Below, in pieces: positions 1,874-51,915 of a stretch of DNA of 64,000 bases (position 1 is the first letter of the stretch; the number at the start of each line of letters is the position of its first letter). The notes under the pieces were generated by a model that saw only the letters and a list, made by a program, of their open reading frames with translations, was not told the origin of the DNA and did no database searches. Source of the stretch: a virus; IMG/VR virus record IMGVR_UViG_3300035703_000062, positions 1-64,000 of that record; one strand, 5' to 3'. Position numbers and translations under genes: made by a program.

Positions 1874-2239
1874 ATGACCACCACCATCAACGAAACCGTC
1901 ACCTGCCCCAACTGCGACGGCACCGGCAGGCTCCCCCACTACAGCCACATCGCCAACGGCGCCTGCTTCGCCTGTGGCGGCACCGGCACGATCACCTTCA
2001 AGACTTTCATTGGCGATAACAGCGATGTGATCCTGGAAGTGTCCATGTGGAAAGGCAAGTTCTATGACGCCCATCTGCGTTGCCGCACCTGGAAGTGCTA
2101 CACCAGCCCCTCCCATGGTCAGATGAAGGAATGGGGCAAGGACAAGTGGGTGAAGCGCATCACCGATGTAGAAGAGGCTCGTGAGCTGTGGCGCAATGCC
2201 AAGGCCCATGGAATCAAGACCACCCTCTGTGATGACTGA
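1874..2239 (+). CDS. DnaJ-type zinc-finger protein (121 aa)
   Basis: The first 40 residues hold two CxxCxGxG-type knuckles, CPNCDGTG and CFACGGTG, spaced as in the DnaJ cysteine-rich domain, so a zinc-binding domain is likely. The remainder (about 45-121) contains no J-domain and resembles nothing I know. Small proteins with this knuckle pair are frequent in phages and may bind nucleic acid or a host protein. The start follows the repeated leader directly. Confidence 0.65.
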   Translation: MTTTINETVTCPNCDGTGRLPHYSHIANGACFACGGTGTITFKTFIGDNSDVILEVSMWKGKFYDAHLRCRTWKCYTSPSHGQMKEWGKDKWVKRITDVEEARELWRNAKAHGIKTTLCDD

Positions 2240-2249
2240 TTGTTAAGAC

Positions 2250-2280
2250 GGAAGCGGGGCCACCAAAGGCCCCGCCTTCC
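2250..2280 (+). terminator. hairpin between cassettes
   Basis: GGAAG-CGGGGCC pairs with GGCCCCG-CTTCC (one bulge) across an ACCAAA loop. It sits in the same position relative to the flanking gene and promoter/leader as the hairpin at 1794-1821, and shares the AAGCGGGG core. Confidence 0.55.
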
Positions 2281-2282
2281 CA

Positions 2283-2330
2283 TGCTGTATAGTTCTTCTC
2301 ACGGGGCGCGAGCCTCATCTTCTGACGATC
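2283..2330 (+). promoter_or_regulatory. repeated promoter/leader element, copy 3
   Basis: TGCTGTATAGTTCTTC, then CACGGGGCGCGAGCCTCATC and CTGACGATC directly before the ATG at 2331. The -10-like box, the GGGGCGNGAGCCTCA block and the CTGACNNTC-ATG junction match copy 2. Confidence 0.6.
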
Positions 2331-2534
2331 ATGGCCCTTCAAATCAACGTCGATTACACATCGCCCTGGGACAAGCGCTACTGGGCGAAGGACTACGCCG
2401 AAATGGCCCTGGCCATCCTGAACAAAAGCGAGCGCTGGCCCGTAGGCTCGCTGAAGGTGGTGCATGTGGACCCCGAGAGCCCTACGCACTGGCGCCTGAT
2501 GCCCACCAAGGGCATTCAGCAGCCTGGCTGGTGA
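2331..2534 (+). CDS. hypothetical protein (67 aa)
   Basis: A short soluble protein with an aromatic-rich N-terminal half (YTSPWDKRYWAKDYAEMAL) and a C-terminal VVHVDPESPTHWRLMP strand region. Start fixed by the upstream repeated leader. Family not recognised. Confidence 0.55.
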   Translation: MALQINVDYTSPWDKRYWAKDYAEMALAILNKSERWPVGSLKVVHVDPESPTHWRLMPTKGIQQPGW

Positions 2535-2548
2535 GCCCGATATATATT

Positions 2549-2571
2549 CCCCTCCCCATCGCTTCCTGATC
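2549..2571 (+). promoter_or_regulatory. pyrimidine-rich leader
   Basis: CCCCTCCCCATCGCTTCCTG lies just before the ATG at 2572, preceded by TATATATT (2541-2548), which could be a -10. The leader matches 2847-2868 (CCCTCCATCGCTTCCTAAG) and relatives elsewhere. No Shine-Dalgarno is present; CCTCC is instead identical to the anti-SD of 16S rRNA. Confidence 0.45.
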
Positions 2572-2829
2572 ATGACCACCATCCCCACCATTCACCTCAA
2601 TGGCACTGGTGCCACCACGCTGCGTGATGAATACGCCGCTGCATACGACGCCATCAGCAAAGCCGTAGGTGCTCTTGTGGCTGCGACGTGCAATGCTCGT
2701 GATTTCTACCCGCAGGGCTCTGATGCCTACTACAAAGCCCGTGATGAACGTGCAACAGCCTTTGACCAGCTCCGTCAGGCCCAGCACTATGTGGGAGAAG
2801 TGCTGATGGGCATCTGCGATCAAATGTGA
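2572..2829 (+). CDS. conserved phage protein, IHLNGT family (85 aa)
   Basis: Starts MTTIPTIHLNGTGATTL and continues with two helices containing NARDFYPQG and DERATAFDQLRQ. This architecture (IHLNGTxxxxL...ARDYYPQGxxAxxxA) is one I know from many tailed phages as a conserved hypothetical of about 90 residues. No function has been assigned as far as I know. It has its own leader but no SD. Confidence 0.7.
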   Translation: MTTIPTIHLNGTGATTLRDEYAAAYDAISKAVGALVAATCNARDFYPQGSDAYYKARDERATAFDQLRQAQHYVGEVLMGICDQM

Positions 2830-2846
2830 CTCTGCCCCTAACTCTG

Positions 2847-2868
2847 CCCTCCATCGCTTCCTAAGACC
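2847..2868 (+). promoter_or_regulatory. pyrimidine-rich leader
   Basis: CCCTCCATCGCTTCCTAAG directly upstream of the ATG at 2869, a close match to 2549-2571 and to CCCTCCATTGTTTCCTCT at 9369-9386. Confidence 0.4.
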
Positions 2869-3258
2869 ATGCTGCCCATCCTGCTCGCCACTGCACTGCC
2901 TGAACTGCCTCCCGTAGTGCAGCCCAAGCCCGTTCAGTCCCGCCAGCAAGCCATTCTTGAGCAGATCATGCAGCAGGCTCCTGCTGCCGCCTCTGAGCGC
3001 TCCTTTGGTGAATGCACATATATGTGGGACCAATGGAAGCTCAACTCTGAGGGCGTCAGAACCACCTTCCGCACCTGCAAAGGTGAATCTGTGCAAACGC
3101 CCGTCAGCGTAGCCGTGAGCTGCTCGCTGTTGAAGGTGAACACCACCAGCTCCACCGAGCCTGGCAAATGGCAAGGTTGGCGTAGCCCCATCGCTAAAGG
3201 CTCAAAACCAGGCGAGGCCATGATGGTGGCCAGTCTTTGCGCCAATGTGGCCGAATAG
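2869..3258 (+). CDS. hypothetical protein, possibly exported (129 aa)
   Basis: The N-terminus MLPILLATALPELPPVV is a short hydrophobic stretch followed by prolines and could be a weak signal sequence. The body has three cysteines (GECTYMW, TFRTCKG, VSCSLL), consistent with an exported domain. Not recognised. It is followed by a clear terminator. Confidence 0.5.
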   Translation: MLPILLATALPELPPVVQPKPVQSRQQAILEQIMQQAPAAASERSFGECTYMWDQWKLNSEGVRTTFRTCKGESVQTPVSVAVSCSLLKVNTTSSTEPGKWQGWRSPIAKGSKPGEAMMVASLCANVAE

Positions 3259-3264
3259 CTTGAC

Positions 3265-3289
3265 AAGCCCCGCAAGGGGCTTTATCTTT
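3265..3289 (+). terminator. intrinsic terminator
   Basis: AAGCCCC-GCAA-GGGGCTT followed by TATCTTT. A compact stem with a GNRA tetraloop and a T-rich tail, placed 6 bp after the preceding stop. Confidence 0.75.
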
Positions 3290-3332
3290 GCTCATGTCCG
3301 GGGCGGCGACGCTCCACAGCTTTCTGACAGTC
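3290..3332 (+). promoter_or_regulatory. repeated leader element, copy 4
   Basis: TCCGGGGCGGCGACGCTCCAC and CTGACAGTC abut the ATG at 3333. It is the most diverged copy in the GGGGCG block, but the CTGACAGTC-ATG junction is identical to copy 2. Confidence 0.45.
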
Positions 3333-3596
3333 ATGACCATCAACTCTCTCACCCTCGTTGGCCGCAACAGCGAAGTGGCCGTAGAGCGCACTGAAAGTGG
3401 CTCTGCTTTTGCTTCCTTCTCCATCACCGTCAAGCGTGGTGAGCAGACTGCCACCATCCCTTGCGAAGCTTGGGGCAAAATGGCCGAGAAGGCAGAAGCA
3501 ATGGAGAGCGGCATGCTGATCGGCCTGATCGGCACCCTCACCAAAGAGAAGAAGGTGCGCCTTGACTGCCTGGAGATCCTGGCCAGCGCCGCCTGA
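3333..3596 (+). CDS. ssb: single-stranded DNA-binding protein, short OB-fold (87 aa)
   Basis: MTINSLTLVGRNSEVAVE opens a typical SSB OB-fold, followed by FASFSITVKRGEQTATIPCEAWGKMAEKAE, which matches the SSB pattern FxxAxxR...WIxCxxWGKxAE. The protein stops at EILASAA, straight after the OB-fold, so the flexible linker and acidic C-terminal tip of cellular SSBs are absent. I start at 3333, not at the in-frame codon at 3288, because the repeated leader ends there. Role inferred: coating ssDNA during phage replication and recombination. Confidence 0.8.
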   Translation: MTINSLTLVGRNSEVAVERTESGSAFASFSITVKRGEQTATIPCEAWGKMAEKAEAMESGMLIGLIGTLTKEKKVRLDCLEILASAA

Positions 3597-3603
3597 TCAA
3601 CTA

Positions 3604-3625
3604 GGGGCCGCCCCAAAGCGGCCCC
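3604..3625 (+). terminator. GC-rich hairpin after ssb
   Basis: GGGGCCGC (3604-3611) pairs with GCGGCCCC (3618-3625) across CCCAAA. No T-tract follows, so termination is uncertain. Confidence 0.45.
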
Positions 3626-3651
3626 GCCCACCTTTGATACATCCCAGAACC

Positions 3652-3837
3652 ATGCAAGACATTGTGAACGTGCTGGCCATCAGCAAGAAGGGCAAGAGCC
3701 GCATCGGCACCCAGCTCACCACTGCCATCGTCGAACAAAACCACCAGGACAAGCTATTTCTGGTGTTTCCTGAGCTAAACCAGTGCCGATGGATCAAAAA
3801 GGACAACGATCCTGATTTTCGTATCATCGAAGCCTGA
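3652..3837 (+). CDS. small beta-rich hypothetical protein (61 aa)
   Basis: MQDIVNVLAISKKGKSRIGTQ then FLVFPELNQCRWIKKDND. I use the ATG at 3652, since the preceding 90 bp in the same frame include the hairpin after ssb. The short strand-rich protein resembles small phage proteins lying beside SSBs, but no function can be assigned. Confidence 0.6.
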   Translation: MQDIVNVLAISKKGKSRIGTQLTTAIVEQNHQDKLFLVFPELNQCRWIKKDNDPDFRIIEA

Positions 3838-5460: not shown

Positions 5461-6147
5461 GTGAAACTTTCCGACCTTTCTTTCCACCTTTCAATCAAAA
5501 GCGGCAACAAAAAAACCGGGGAGATGGCAGTAAGCACATCTTCAAAAGCTACATGCTCGCCTAGTTGCCCTTTCCTTAACAACGGTTGTTATGCGGGATC
5601 AGGTCCACTCAACCTCCACTGGCTTAAAGTTACCAGCGGTGAGCGTGGCGATATATTCTCGGTCTTTCTGCAAAAGTTAAAAGCACTCCCGGAAAGTTCC
5701 GCTTTCCGCCATAACCAGGCCGGGGATCTTTGCCATAACAATGGAAAGATCAGCAGAACTTTCATCCGCCGGATGGTAGAAAGCGTGGCCCACTTGCGCG
5801 CCTACACTTACACTCATCACAACTTACAACTGGGCGAGAATCTTTCCCTCTTAAAGTACGCTAACCGTAACGGCTTCACAATCAACGTAAGCTGTGAAAG
5901 TGAAGCGCAGGTTGATGATGCAATCGCTGCAGATCTGCCGGCCGTGCTAGTTGTACCCTCCGATGAGAAACGTACAACGTGGCGCACTGAATCAGGAAAT
6001 GCGGTGCTAGTTTGCCCGGCACAACGCAGCGATACTGTAACTTGCGCCGATTGCATGCTATGTCATAAGCGTGGCAAGAAAGTGGCGATAGCCTTTCTCG
6101 CCCATGGCACAAGTAAGCGTAAGGCTGAAGCACAACTTTCTGCCTGA
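5461..6147 (+). CDS. DUF7227-like cysteine-rich protein (228 aa)
   Basis: After the GTG the sequence has SGNKKTGEMAVSTSSKATC, then CSPSCPFLNNGCYAGSGP, a RHNQAGDLCHN segment, YTHHN, a GFTINVSCESEAQVD region and a C-terminal VTCADCMLCHKRGKKVAIAFLAHGTSKRKAE. This block order matches a phage/cyanobacterial family I know as DUF7227. The two cysteine clusters suggest a metal site or Fe-S cluster; function is not established. GTG 5461 is chosen over 5395 because the leader CCCTCGCATCTTTCACC matches the one before 6177 and family members begin shortly before the SGN motif. It is the first larger gene after the iterons. Confidence 0.7.
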   Translation: MKLSDLSFHLSIKSGNKKTGEMAVSTSSKATCSPSCPFLNNGCYAGSGPLNLHWLKVTSGERGDIFSVFLQKLKALPESSAFRHNQAGDLCHNNGKISRTFIRRMVESVAHLRAYTYTHHNLQLGENLSLLKYANRNGFTINVSCESEAQVDDAIAADLPAVLVVPSDEKRTTWRTESGNAVLVCPAQRSDTVTCADCMLCHKRGKKVAIAFLAHGTSKRKAEAQLSA

Positions 6148-6176
6148 TTCTCTCCACTTCCCTCGCAATCTTTCCG

Positions 6177-6332
6177 ATGCCTGAACTTTCCATTTCTGCA
6201 CTTTCTCTTCTGGCAGAACTTCTAGAAGATGCCGAGCAAACGCAATCTATCTGTGAAGACGTGGCCCCATGGCGTGACAGAAAGCCTCAGATAGAAGAAC
6301 TCTGGACCCTCTATTCTTCCCTTCTAAAGTGA
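6177..6332 (+). CDS. small acidic protein (51 aa)
   Basis: MPELSISALSLLAELLEDAEQ...LWTLYSSLLK: almost entirely helical. It is preceded by TTCCCTCGCAATCTTTCCG, the same leader type as the gene upstream, and its stop overlaps the next start (TGATG at 6330-6334). The tight overlap supports coding. Not recognised. Confidence 0.6.
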   Translation: MPELSISALSLLAELLEDAEQTQSICEDVAPWRDRKPQIEELWTLYSSLLK

Positions 6333-6538
6333 TGCCCACTTTCTATCTTTCTGCCGTTGATGAATACGGCCACAGCTACGATGCTCAAACTTTCCACTCT
6401 ACAGAAGATGCCCTTTCCTTTATCAATGCCCTAGAAGATGCCCTAGAAGATGCAACCGTCGGCCAGCACTATGCAATCAGCGCAGCTATTGAAAGCTTGA
6501 AAGATCAGCTCGCTGATTGTGAAGAACTGCCAGAGTAG
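6332..6538 (+). CDS. small acidic hypothetical protein (68 aa)
   Basis: MPTFYLSAVDEYGHSYDAQTF then FINALEDALEDA and SLKDQLADCEELPE. An N-terminal strand pair is followed by two acidic helices. It is translationally coupled to the preceding gene through TGATG. Inside it GCCCTAGAAGAT is tandemly repeated and encodes ALEDALEDA. Confidence 0.6.
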   Translation: MPTFYLSAVDEYGHSYDAQTFHSTEDALSFINALEDALEDATVGQHYAISAAIESLKDQLADCEELPE

Positions 6539-6567
6539 CCCAGAAGCCTCTAGAAGCCCTCACCATA

Positions 6568-6601
6568 GAAAGCCCGCTAGCCTCTCACCTAGCGGGCTTT
6601 C
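6568..6601 (+). terminator. strong hairpin terminator
   Basis: GAAAGCCCGCTAG and CTAGCGGGCTTTC form a perfect 13-bp stem with an 8-nt loop. It ends the operon that starts near 5267. The long symmetrical stem may also block leftward transcription. Confidence 0.75.
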
Positions 6602-6751
6602 TGCTGCCCTTCTAGCCTGTCAGGGCGGCCGGTGCTGATGGCCGGGAATCGCTGCAGCATCTGGGGATCCGGGAGACTAGGGAATCAGCCACCATCTAAA
6701 AGCCGACTTTATAGGTCGGGATTTGACTGATTAGCATTCCTGATGGCCACA

Positions 6752-6866
6752 GGGCTTGACGGCCGGCGCGATGCCGTGAGAGAATGGGGCAAAGCCCTGG
6801 CGCGGTAACGCCGGGGTTGCGGCCGAGAGGCGGCGGGCTACCCCTCCGAAAAACGGCGCCATTTTT
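6752..6866 (+). ncRNA. candidate structured RNA
   Basis: Four stems can be drawn in order. GGGCTT (6752-6757) pairs with AAGCCC (6792-6797). GGCG-CGGTAA-CGCC spans 6799-6812. GGGGT (6813-6817) pairs with ACCCC (6840-6844) and encloses GCC-GAGA-GGC. CCG-AAAAA-CGG (6846-6856) runs into GGCGCC-ATTTTT, which looks like a terminator. No convincing ORF covers it. It lies downstream of the IS110-like gene (on the opposite strand), where some IS110/IS1111 elements keep their guide RNA. Strand and function are not certain. Confidence 0.35.
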
Positions 6867-6913
6867 GATCTAGCCCTTCACTATATGCATAGCCGCATAG
6901 CTTCTTGACAAGC

Positions 6914-6957
6914 TGAACGATGCGCTAGGCGTCGTGATGAGCTGAAAGAAGCGTTTG
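6914..6957 (+). other. conserved hairpin element, copy 1
   Basis: TGAACGATG-CGCTAGG-CGTCGTG followed by TGAAAGAAGCGTTTGC. The stem is ACGAtG/CgTCGT. The same layout, TGAACGAYG-loop-CRTCGTG then TGAAAnAnGCG, recurs at 6989 and 13735, with compensating stem changes. Confidence 0.5.
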
Positions 6958-6988
6958 CAGCGATGGTGAGCAGGGCGTCTTGAGGCTG

Positions 6989-7033
6989 TGAACGATGTGT
7001 CAAACATCGTGTCCCTTTGAAAGACGCGCCTGC
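6989..7033 (+). other. conserved hairpin element, copy 2
   Basis: TGAACGATGT-GTCAA-ACATCGTG, then TTTGAAAGACGCGCCTGC. The 7-bp stem is perfect. It lies 32 bp downstream of copy 1 and immediately before the 3' end of the minus-strand IS110-like gene. Confidence 0.5.
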
Positions 7034-7053
7034 TTGTGAACTATAACAATGGA

Positions 7054-8067
7054 TTAGCGCAGGGCCAGTTCCCCATTGTCAAGCTTTTCCTGCACAAGGT
7101 CACGAATGGTTTGCATGGTTTCCGTGATGCCGTCCATAAAGTCCTTACGGCATGTGCGGAATTGCTCTTGTTGCTCTGCATCAAAGTTGTAATGCGAAAG
7201 CACCTTCCCATTGGGACCAGCTTTGCGCGTGCCCATAGCATTCATTGCTTCATTACGAAAGCCATGCCATTTCAAATTGGAGCGGGCAATGCCGCCTTTT
7301 AAATGGAACGGGCTGAAATGAAGCACGTAGCGCTGTAGCCAATTGATACCGGGCAGGTTGCCTGTGTCAGGGCGCTTACGGGCGTAGCCTTTGGGATGGA
7401 GGAACAATGCAGCGAGAGTGTAAAGGCGTGACGTGCGTGGTTTGCTTTGATTCCACGTTTTGCCTTTTTTCTTGCTGCGATAGTCGTCTGACAGATGCAT
7501 GAATTGTTTTGCATTGTCAGAAAGGCGCGAGGCTAGTTCGTCAATGTTGTCATTGACGAACGATGTAACGAAATCGTCTTTCAGGGCATAGTTATAACGA
7601 CGGGCAACGTTCAGAATGCCATCGTTTTCTTTTTTGAAAGACCAGCCTGCTTCAACGCGACGCTCCACGGTGAACGATGTGGGCGGTTTGCGCAGGGATG
7701 CTTGCGGGAAGGTTTGAACGTAGTGAGCAATGGCGCGAAGATCGCCTTCATCACTTTTCCCATCGATTCCTGCAATGGCACGAGCTTTAGCTGTGACGCC
7801 TTGTGGGAACAAGCGAAGCTCGCAGCCTTTAGCTGCGAGCGCATCGTAAAGAGAAAGCAATTCTTGCTCTGTATAGACTTGCGCAAGGCTGAAATCGGTG
7901 CGTGGCGTGCCGAGGTGCGCTGATTCGCAGATCAAGAGAGCGCCAGAAGGGAGCCAGGAGAGAGTGCGGAATTGCTCTGGCGTGAGTTGCGTGACATCAT
8001 CAGAGGCCACATCAAAGATGTGCCAGACAAGCTTGCCGAAGTCGGCAATGTAAAGGGGACGGCGCAT
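7054..8067 (-). CDS. IS110/RuvC-type DEDD nuclease-like protein (337 aa)
   Basis: Not a family I can name exactly, but the N-terminal 120 residues match the layout of the IS110 transposase DEDD domain. That layout is an acidic residue in the first strand (LYIADFGK, D9), an acidic residue after a hydrophobic strand (LLICESAHLG, E48), a strand plus basic region (ELRLFPQGVTAKARAIAG) and a KSDEGDLRAIAHY helix with D106/D109, the IS110 'KTDxxDAxxLA' motif. The C-terminal 200 residues are basic (KKKGKTW, KPRTSRLY), contain NLPGINW and lack a clear Tnp20 serine motif. A Piv-like recombinase or domesticated transposase is possible. Monocistronic on the minus strand between + strand genes. No terminal inverted repeats were noticed. 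Confidence 0.5.
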   Translation of the reverse strand: MRRPLYIADFGKLVWHIFDVASDDVTQLTPEQFRTLSWLPSGALLICESAHLGTPRTDFSLAQVYTEQELLSLYDALAAKGCELRLFPQGVTAKARAIAGIDGKSDEGDLRAIAHYVQTFPQASLRKPPTSFTVERRVEAGWSFKKENDGILNVARRYNYALKDDFVTSFVNDNIDELASRLSDNAKQFMHLSDDYRSKKKGKTWNQSKPRTSRLYTLAALFLHPKGYARKRPDTGNLPGINWLQRYVLHFSPFHLKGGIARSNLKWHGFRNEAMNAMGTRKAGPNGKVLSHYNFDAEQQEQFRTCRKDFMDGITETMQTIRDLVQEKLDNGELALR

Positions 8068-48902: not shown

Positions 48903-50879
48903 ATGGCTCGCAACACCTTGGCCCCTGGTGGATATATTGGTGGCGAGCCGCCGAGGCGGCCATATTTAAATCAGCTTAGTGGCGTATGGAAGCTGGAAGA
49001 CGCAGTGGAGCGTCAGAAGGCTGGTACGTGGACCAACCCGCTAGGCATTGAAGACCTGTTTTCCACCTATCTTTACACAGGCAACGGCAGCACGCAGACG
49101 ATCACGAATGGGATTGATCTGGCAGGTAAGGGTGGGTTGGTTTGGATTAAAAGCCGAAGCACAGTAACTGACAACGCTCTTTTTGACACTGCGCGAGGAG
49201 CATCTAATGGGTTTCTGCGTTCAAACACCACAGACACGCCTTATGCAAACCCAAGCAGTGACCTGACCAGTTTTGACGCGTCCGGTTTCTCGATCACTAA
49301 TAGCACAGGAAATGTCAACGTAAGCCCTCGCACCTACGCCTCCTGGACCTTCCGCAAGGCCGCGAAGTTCTTTGATGTAGTGACGTGGACGGGGGATGGT
49401 GCATCTTCTCGCAACATCTCTCACGCTCTTGGTTCTACGCCCGGCTTCATCGTTGTTAAACGAACAAGCGCATCCTCAGACTGGTGGTGTTGGCATAGGT
49501 CCATATCAACTGGTGATCTTTCTGGCAACAACTTGATTGTATTAAACACAACAGCAGCCCAAACTAATATTGGCACAGTAATCGGAACGGCATCTTCCAC
49601 GTCGTTCCAAGTTGGTGGTGATAGCTCTGTCAACGCCTCTGGCGCCACCTACGTCGCCTACCTATTCGCGCACGACGCTGGCGGGTTTGGCGATAGCGGC
49701 AATGACAGCGTGGTGAGTTGCGGTACATTTACAGGTGATTCCACTGTTACTCTTGGTTGGGAGCCGCAGTGGCTTCTTTTTAAGCGTACTGATTCAACGG
49801 GTAACTGGAGAATTCTTGATAATATGAGGGGGATGCCAGTAATTGCAAGTTCTACTGGTAGTCAACAAGTTCTTTTTCCCAATACATCAGGAGCAGAATC
49901 AACTGATGGCGTAGCCAGTCCGACGCCAACAGGTTTTCAGGCGTTTTTAGGTGCTGGCACCTACATCTACATCGCCATCCGCCGTGGGCCGATGAAGACG
50001 CCTACGGATGCGACGAAGGTGTTTTCTCCTTACATTGCAGCAGGCAATACGGCTACTGGCTTTGTTACTGATTTGCAGTTTGCCTTAGAACGAGCCGGTA
50101 GCGCCAATAATGCCCAGACGTATGATCGTCTTCGCGGTGGCAAAACCTTAAGAACAAGCAGCACGGGTGCTGAGTTTAACTTCGATGTAGGTTTTGCGAC
50201 AAATGACGGCACGACATATTCATGGACATCCGGTTATCTACGGTATTCTTTCCGCCGCGCCCCCGGCTTCTTCGACGTGGTGGCTTATACGGGCACGGGC
50301 AGCGATCAGACTATCACTCATAATCTCGGCGTTACGCCGGAGCTAATAATTGTAAAATGCAGAAGCGCAGTCGATGATTGGTATGTTTATAGTCAGAGTT
50401 TGCCAACCGCTACGCAGAACTGGGTAAGGCTTAGTACTAACGCTTCTGCAAATGGCGCTATTGGACAAGATCTTTGGGGGCCGCCAACTTCGACAACGTT
50501 CAAGGTGGATACTTATTTAGCACTGTCCACTTCTGCTGGCACCTACATCGCCTACCTCTTCGCCTCCTGCCCCGGGGTCAGCAAGGTCGGCAGCTATACC
50601 GGCACTGGCACCACGCTGAGCATCGACTGCGGCTTCACAGCAGGCGCACGGTTCGTTCTGATCAAGCGCACTGACAGCACCGGTGACTGGTACGTCTGGG
50701 ACACCGCTCGCGGCATCATCAGTGGTAACGATCCATCACTTTTATTGAACTCTACTGCTGCGGAAGTGACGAACACTGACTACATCGACCCGCTGAATGC
50801 TGGCTTCCAAATTAGCTCTACTGCCCCTGCCGCCATCAATGCAAACGGCGGAAGCTTCATCTTTTTTGCAGTGGCTTAG
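48903..50879 (+). CDS. modular tail adhesin with DUF7483-type repeats (658 aa)
   Basis: N-terminus APGGYIGGEPPRRPYLNQLSGVWKLEDAVERQKAGTW is an anchor shared with the next gene. After it the protein is built from repeats of the type FRKAAKFFDVVTWTGDGASSRNISHALGSTPGFIVVKRT (also ~450 and ~570), known from cyanophage fibres as DUF7483. At least three complete units and two partial ones are visible (FTGDSTVTLGWEPQWLLFKRTDSTGNW). Likely host-recognition protein. SD AGGAAGG precedes the ATG. Confidence 0.7.
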   Translation: MARNTLAPGGYIGGEPPRRPYLNQLSGVWKLEDAVERQKAGTWTNPLGIEDLFSTYLYTGNGSTQTITNGIDLAGKGGLVWIKSRSTVTDNALFDTARGASNGFLRSNTTDTPYANPSSDLTSFDASGFSITNSTGNVNVSPRTYASWTFRKAAKFFDVVTWTGDGASSRNISHALGSTPGFIVVKRTSASSDWWCWHRSISTGDLSGNNLIVLNTTAAQTNIGTVIGTASSTSFQVGGDSSVNASGATYVAYLFAHDAGGFGDSGNDSVVSCGTFTGDSTVTLGWEPQWLLFKRTDSTGNWRILDNMRGMPVIASSTGSQQVLFPNTSGAESTDGVASPTPTGFQAFLGAGTYIYIAIRRGPMKTPTDATKVFSPYIAAGNTATGFVTDLQFALERAGSANNAQTYDRLRGGKTLRTSSTGAEFNFDVGFATNDGTTYSWTSGYLRYSFRRAPGFFDVVAYTGTGSDQTITHNLGVTPELIIVKCRSAVDDWYVYSQSLPTATQNWVRLSTNASANGAIGQDLWGPPTSTTFKVDTYLALSTSAGTYIAYLFASCPGVSKVGSYTGTGTTLSIDCGFTAGARFVLIKRTDSTGDWYVWDTARGIISGNDPSLLLNSTAAEVTNTDYIDPLNAGFQISSTAPAAINANGGSFIFFAVA

Positions 50880-50925: not shown

Positions 50926-51678
50926 ATGGGACAAGGCGGATACATCGGCGCAAGCCCTGCTTGGCAAGGAGGACCTACTAATCCCTATCCCTATCTGCCT
51001 GGTGCATGGCAAATTCAGGAAGCGTATCGCAGAGGGCGCAGTGGCACTTGGACTCGGGCAGGTATTCCAGTGATTGGTGAGCCTTATCAAGGCGGCTTTT
51101 TTGCTGGATTTATTAGTCATACTGCTGACGGCAACGCCACGCACGCATTAATTGTGGCGCCACGTGCCACCGGGGGCATGGGTGGCTCTTATCCGCGTGA
51201 CTCGCGGTGGAAGACCAGTCAAACCACGACAGTTGGCACTACAAGCCCGTTTGATGGCGCCGCAAATACCGCTGCAATAGTTACTGCTGGGATTGCCGCT
51301 CATCCCGCTGCTCAATTTTGCGTCAGCCTTAGCATTGGCGGATATACAGATTGGTATCTTCCCTCGCGGTATGAGCTTGATATTGCCTATCAAAACTTAA
51401 AGCCAACAACCTACAATAACGACACATCTTGGGGCGTCAACCCTTATTCAGTGCCAGCGCGTACAGTCAATCGCACCACTGGAACCCCCTTGAGAACGTC
51501 AGTAGCCGCCTTTCAAGATGGCGGAACAGAATCCTTTGTTACGAGCTACCACTGGTCATCCACTGAGGGCAGCGCCGCGAATGCGTGGACAGTGTACTTC
51601 ATTGATGGCTCCCATCTAAGTACTACCAAGACCGACACCACATGGTACGTTCGTGCCTTCCGCAAAGTAGCGCTTTAA
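50926..51678 (+). CDS. DGR-type variable protein: shared anchor plus C-type lectin-like domain (250 aa)
   Basis: MGQGGYIGASPAWQGGPTNPYPYLPGAWQIQEAYRRGRSGTW is the anchor also seen upstream. Residues ~60-250 match the DUF1566/CLec fold: GYTDWYLPSRYELDIAY, then HWSSTEGSAANAWTVYF-x-DGS...K...YVRAFRKV. This is the scaffold that diversity-generating retroelements diversify; variable positions would be the residues between invariant W-SSTE, AW, V-F, G, K and YVRA. Many of those codons end in C or T, as expected from mutated AAY. A remnant of a DGR reverse transcriptase follows at 51781. Confidence 0.65.
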   Translation: MGQGGYIGASPAWQGGPTNPYPYLPGAWQIQEAYRRGRSGTWTRAGIPVIGEPYQGGFFAGFISHTADGNATHALIVAPRATGGMGGSYPRDSRWKTSQTTTVGTTSPFDGAANTAAIVTAGIAAHPAAQFCVSLSIGGYTDWYLPSRYELDIAYQNLKPTTYNNDTSWGVNPYSVPARTVNRTTGTPLRTSVAAFQDGGTESFVTSYHWSSTEGSAANAWTVYFIDGSHLSTTKTDTTWYVRAFRKVAL

Positions 51679-51700
51679 TACTTTCGTTCTTTAGACAGCA

Positions 51701-51741
51701 AGCGAGCATGCCCTAAACTAAGACTTTCTCGCTTTTTTCTT
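51701..51741 (+). terminator. terminator after the variable protein
   Basis: AGCGAG (51701-51706) pairs with CTCGCT (51728-51733) across a 21-nt loop, followed by TTTTTCTTT. The long loop weakens the call; in DGRs a hairpin after the variable region is also part of the retrohoming site. Confidence 0.45.
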
Positions 51742-51780
51742 TGGCTAAATACAAGCATCTGCCAATATACAAATCAACCT

Positions 51781-51915
51781 ATGACCTTGGTGAATAGCTA
51801 TTTAGGATTTTTGCGGCACATGAACAGCTATGGCGCCAGAGAAAAGATATGCAGAAGGTTTTCTTGGCTAGGCTATGAATCAAATGCAGAAATGACAAAA
51901 ATTATTTCGCTTTAG
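51781..51915 (+). pseudogene. C-terminal remnant of a DGR-type reverse transcriptase (44 codons)
   Basis: The frame reads TLVNSYLGFLRHMNSYGAREK then ICRRFSWLGYESNAEM and stops. 'VNSYLGxxxHxNSYxxRxK...F-WL' is the conserved C-terminal end of DGR reverse transcriptases. The catalytic region (YxDD/YMDD) and all N-terminal motifs are missing. The same frame is open back to the variable-protein stop at 51678, but that part is not RT-like. It directly follows a lectin-fold variable protein. Probably a deletion remnant; it might still be translated as a short peptide. Confidence 0.6.

Follow-up and report, generated by a model that had tools for sequence, protein, structure and literature searches.

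We found that the locus at positions 50,926 to 51,915 of the window, the 64,000-base stretch analysed here (bases 1-64000 of the 74,337-base, metagenome-derived virus record IMGVR_UViG_3300035703_000062), is probably a scar left where an S-CBS4-like cyanophage lost its diversity-generating retroelement (DGR), with the machinery deleted and the target gene kept and now frozen. The ancestor would have carried the target (variable) protein gene VP, avd, a template repeat (TR) and a reverse transcriptase (RT) gene in this order, and one deletion, reaching from avd codon 16 to approximately codon 331 of the 370-codon RT, would have taken out the machinery without touching the target gene, with the variable face of the presumed adhesin frozen thereafter. 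As a rule, only an orphan target is left to suggest that a DGR was lost; in this case the cassette survives at both of its ends, so that the event, its breakpoints and its direction are directly readable. The affiliation of the phage, already called a cyanophage in the initial annotation, is supported by its nearest cultured relative, Synechococcus phage S-CBS4, which aligns to 48% of a 24.5-kb query of structural genes at 75.8% identity. At 74.3 kb, the record is similar in length to S-CBS4 (69.4 kb) and to further S-CBS4-like records (70-77 kb). No RT was found in any of the S-CBS4-like records searched in this 70-77 kb set, and a DNA search of the locus against annotated phages returned zero matches.

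The target gene occupies 50926..51678 on the plus strand and was identified from its open reading frame, the PF07603 profile, a structure model and its relatives. It is an intact frame of 250 codons, and Lcl_C (PF07603, formerly DUF1566) is found in its C-terminal part at residues 124-244, with a profile score of 36.2 bits that exceeds the curated Pfam cut-off of 34.9 by a small margin, which bears out the DUF1566 protein previously placed at 50926. The AlphaFold model of VP is confident from approximately residue 50 (mean pLDDT 86.5). Among PDB entries the model most resembles 8q4e, the C-terminal domain of Legionella Lcl (E=6e-5; TM 0.66, normalised by target length), which was also recovered by profile search, whereas C-type lectin-like proteins match the model only at E above 1, too weakly to establish a CLec fold. 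VP therefore corresponds to the Legionella domain (PF07603) by both profile and fold, and it differs from Legionella Lcl in being a phage protein of the tail region that carries a former DGR variable region (VR). From its position among tail genes, VP is presumably a tail adhesin. Additionally, the DUF7483 protein encoded at 48903-50879 and VP (50926-51060) have similar N-termini of the form GGYIG...GTWT, and this common N-terminus is perhaps a tail-attachment module.

Upon examining its relatives, we observe that those closest to VP are L171, L003, L001, L072 and L002, with the VP of L003/L004 displaying 64% identity to that of the window. A tree built from 66 VP relatives places the window VP with L003, L072, L170 and L171 (support 92/96); this cluster is nested in a nine-row set (support 100/98), and the window VP falls among RT-positive relatives. 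The closest relatives with enough sequence, namely L003/L004 and L072 (IMGVR 3300023179_000671), retain avd, TR and RT in complete cassettes of the order VP-avd-TR-RT. Between VR and TR, 22/47 template adenines and 0/82 other bases differ in L072, and 25/44 template adenines and 0/85 other bases differ in L003. The avd products of both score above the cut-off for PF22296 (bAvd) and below the whole-protein cut-off for NCBIfam DivGenRetAVD, RVT_1 matches the L072 RT, and when four such RTs were combined into a profile, 8ub7, the RT of the Bordetella phage BPP-1 DGR, came out as the best PDB match (E=1.2e-52). Judged by these sequence features, the L072 and L003 cassettes are true DGRs. They have the target family, the avd head, the RT tail and the gene order in common with the window, but retain the full avd, TR and RT, whereas the window retains 16 avd codons and 39 RT codons. 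Similarly, the BPP-1 DGR (target - avd - TR - RT) matches the layout of the presumed ancestral cassette of the window; in contrast to it, the window is without a working RT, TR or Avd, and its target domain is Lcl_C.

Immediately downstream of VP, an open frame of 44 codons (51781-51915) contains the 3' remnant of a DGR RT gene, whose last 39 aligned codons lie at 51790..51906 on the plus strand and are 67.5% identical to the L072 RT and 64% identical to the L003 RT. The L003/L004 RT, which sits directly downstream of VP, has the C-terminal end VNSYLGMLRHVNGYKARRKVCQRLSWLGYQSDSELTKLLK, and the L072 RT, which was found by a search with the L003 RT and is 70% identical to it, ends in VNSYLGFLKHVNGYGARRKICQRLEWLGHPSNNKMTKLIAK. 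When the full L003 RT was compared with the whole record by tblastn, the RT tail was the sole match (E=3.3e-14); aligned to the L003 RT tail it scores 151, as opposed to 25 for the next place in the 74,337-base record and a maximum of 43 among 100 codon-shuffled genomes. The 44-residue peptide alone found zero matches in Pfam or NCBIfam and matched the PHROGs reverse transcriptase weakly (E=0.12), and since these peptide-alone profile searches gave nothing strong, the identification rests on the close relatives, through which the similarity is far beyond chance. The initial reading of this frame as the C-terminus of a DGR RT is thereby upheld, with 64-68% identity to RTs that complete the same cassette elsewhere. 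Avd had been reported as absent; its remainder is indeed missing, but its first 16 codons are present at 51741..51788 on the plus strand, with a TTG start and the stop of the hybrid frame at 51795-51797, as indicated by the L072 and L003 alignments and by shuffles. This segment encodes LAKYKHLPIYKSTYDL, compared with LAKYKHLPIYKLTYDL at the avd start of L072 and LAQYKHLPIYKLTYDL at that of L003. Of its residues, 15/16 are identical to the L072 avd, its score of 76 compares with 26 for the next place in the record and a shuffle maximum of 40, and window positions 51739-51788 match the L003 DNA at 84%. That the 44-codon frame is open by chance and VP was never in a DGR is hardly credible, even with the lack of Pfam and NCBIfam matches, the PHROGs E-value and the 33/66 Lcl_C relative rows without an RT nearby in its favour; it is already refuted by the two remnants, which represent the expected ends of the expected genes, stand beside the target in cassette order and score far above shuffles.

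The avd head and the RT tail are fused at a deletion junction at 51786..51790 (approximate, plus strand), located from abutting alignments to L003 and L072; in the DNA alignment to L003, the avd match stops at 51788 and the RT match starts at 51789. The missing bases number approximately 1555 relative to L072 (5517-7071) and 1559 relative to L003 (5915-7473), a stretch of ~1.55 kb that in these relatives contains the template repeat flanked by the remainder of avd and ~89% of the RT. Both remnants follow the order of the cassette directly downstream of VP, and because the closest VP relatives have complete VP-avd-TR-RT cassettes and both ends survive here, in order and fused, the sequence comparison demonstrates the loss of the DGR by deletion. 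The two sides of the junction have only a few bases in common, as expected for an illegitimate deletion, and the junction lies within avd and RT, outside the VR/TR repeat. Both of these properties speak against the explanation that the deletion was created in assembly, or is carried by only a minority of a population that retains the cassette, which we consider very unlikely. This explanation would draw on the metagenomic derivation of the record, on the near-identical VR and TR that make DGR loci hard to assemble, and on the contigs L170/L171, which are syntenic with the window (homologues of three upstream window genes, then a VP sharing the N-terminus of the window VP) and both end within that VP, before or inside the VR, L171 inside it. 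The intact cassette is seen in L003/L004 and L072, not at exactly the window locus. The gene that follows RT in the intact cassettes (L003:7612-8067, L072:7184-7651) is a phage tail assembly chaperone (PF16778), and because it differs from the corresponding gene of the window, the cassette occupies different tail loci.

The 39 RT codons are free of stops, and synonymous/non-synonymous differences are 14/12 between the window RT tail and L072, compared with 19/12 between the intact RTs of L072 and L003, and 9/1 for the avd head between the window and L072, compared with 8/1 between the intact relatives. The remnants retain the substitution pattern of intact genes, and from the stop-free RT codons and substitution counts like those of intact pairs the loss looks recent. 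Neither the scar as an exact 21-mer nor a degenerate pattern of avd head fused to RT tail had a match in viral contigs, and the scar was seen in no relative. Between VP and the avd head, an inverted repeat (AAGCGAG...CTCGCTT) that encloses a 21-base loop and precedes a T run was read directly in the sequence at 51700..51734 on the plus strand, in a stretch that is absent from L072 and L003. Phage DGR targets carry a hairpin with a 4-base GRNA loop (PMC3240598), whereas the loop here is 21 bases long and unlike the published ones, and the stability is ordinary, with a fold no better than shuffles (z -0.05). The inverted repeat was therefore not taken as a DGR target hairpin, and it is possibly a terminator.

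The former VR forms the 3' end of the target gene at 51535..51666 on the plus strand and can be aligned with the TRs of both L072 and L003. The template of the window itself being gone, the VR was compared with that of L072, and 20/47 of the template A positions and 15/82 of the remaining bases were found to differ (p=0.003), with the L072 template too diverged from the window VR to tell whether diversification stopped. The remainder of the window VP displays no A bias relative to L072 (p=0.22), and a bias present in the VR and absent from the rest of VP fits a former DGR target. Comparison of VRs between near-identical loci was discarded as a freezing test, with the RT-positive L053-L055 as identical as the RT-negative L047-L049. 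Neither the RVT_1 catalytic domain nor, on either strand, a template-like copy of the VR was found in the entire 74,337-base record, so that the absence of the template repeat and the RT catalytic domain, initially noted for the locus, extends to all 74 kb; of what a functional DGR comprises, the record is without a catalytic RT, a template repeat and a full Avd. Of the two fates proposed earlier, an adhesin frozen by deletion or one served by an RT in trans, the former is favoured, because no RT or TR is present in the record and the diverged TR of L072 is the sole IMG/VR match, and for the latter no donor was found. It is unlikely that the target is still diversified in trans, with the RT and template of a co-infecting phage, a prophage or the host overwriting the VR. 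VP and its VR are intact, complete cassettes exist in related phages and many VPs of the family have no RT nearby, all of which such service would accommodate; against it, a search of IMG/VR with a VR pattern in which the template-A positions were free hit nothing but the contig of L072 itself, and a search of a genome collection with the single L003 RT gave relatives of at most 48% identity, with no cyanobacterium among the matches listed, in addition to the lack of an intact avd, RT or TR in the record. More specifically, that the adhesin is still rewritten by the cassette of a co-infecting relative after the phage shed its own DGR appears quite unlikely; if true, hypermutation would be a shared resource of the cyanophage pool, with cassette-free phages as its users. 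The variable face of VP is probably now frozen, changing only by ordinary mutation and recombination.

When examining the other members of the family, we observe further targets that have lost their cassettes. L001 lacks the entire avd-TR-RT stretch (L003 ~5858-7614), and directly after VP comes the counterpart of the gene located downstream of RT in L003. Comparing L047:5965-7600 with L074:1-5115, the avd-TR-RT stretch (L074 ~1932-3659) is exactly missing, identically in L047-L049, and the L047 VR keeps its A bias relative to the L074 template (15/49 vs 6/77, p=0.001). An avd remnant was also considered in L002 and dismissed, its alignment to L003 reaching only ~6 bases into avd. Across the VP tree the RT-positive label calls for 8 changes, with at least 5 forced by well-supported branches, where a label of no RT often means none on a fragmentary contig. 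In L067, a 108-kb contig (L067:6400-6700 compared with L022:6400-7400), VP is close to that of the RT-positive L022 and no RT was found nearby. Leftover DGR target genes with DGR-type VRs have been described in Treponema denticola genomes without RT and TR and were read as losses (PMC4891356). The window resembles these in having a DGR-type VR without RT or TR, and differs from them in that they are orphan targets in bacterial genomes, whereas here, in a phage, both ends of the lost cassette are in place. In a partial search of the literature we found no description of a DGR scar of this kind in a cyanophage. The locus exemplifies a type of event already known, and its breakpoints are unusually clear. 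Taken with the family's other cassette-free former targets, it suggests that a phage can discard the hypermutation machinery yet retain what that machinery produced, and it allows a test of whether diversification of a receptor-binding face ends in fixation once the face suits a host. Finally, the S-CBS4-like contig L192 carries a complete, different DGR at 10-1350, with the VR at 10 and the TR at 188, which differ at 20/27 A and 1/92 other bases, and with an RT that is 27% identical to that of L072, indicating that DGRs of differing origin enter the S-CBS4-like phage group.
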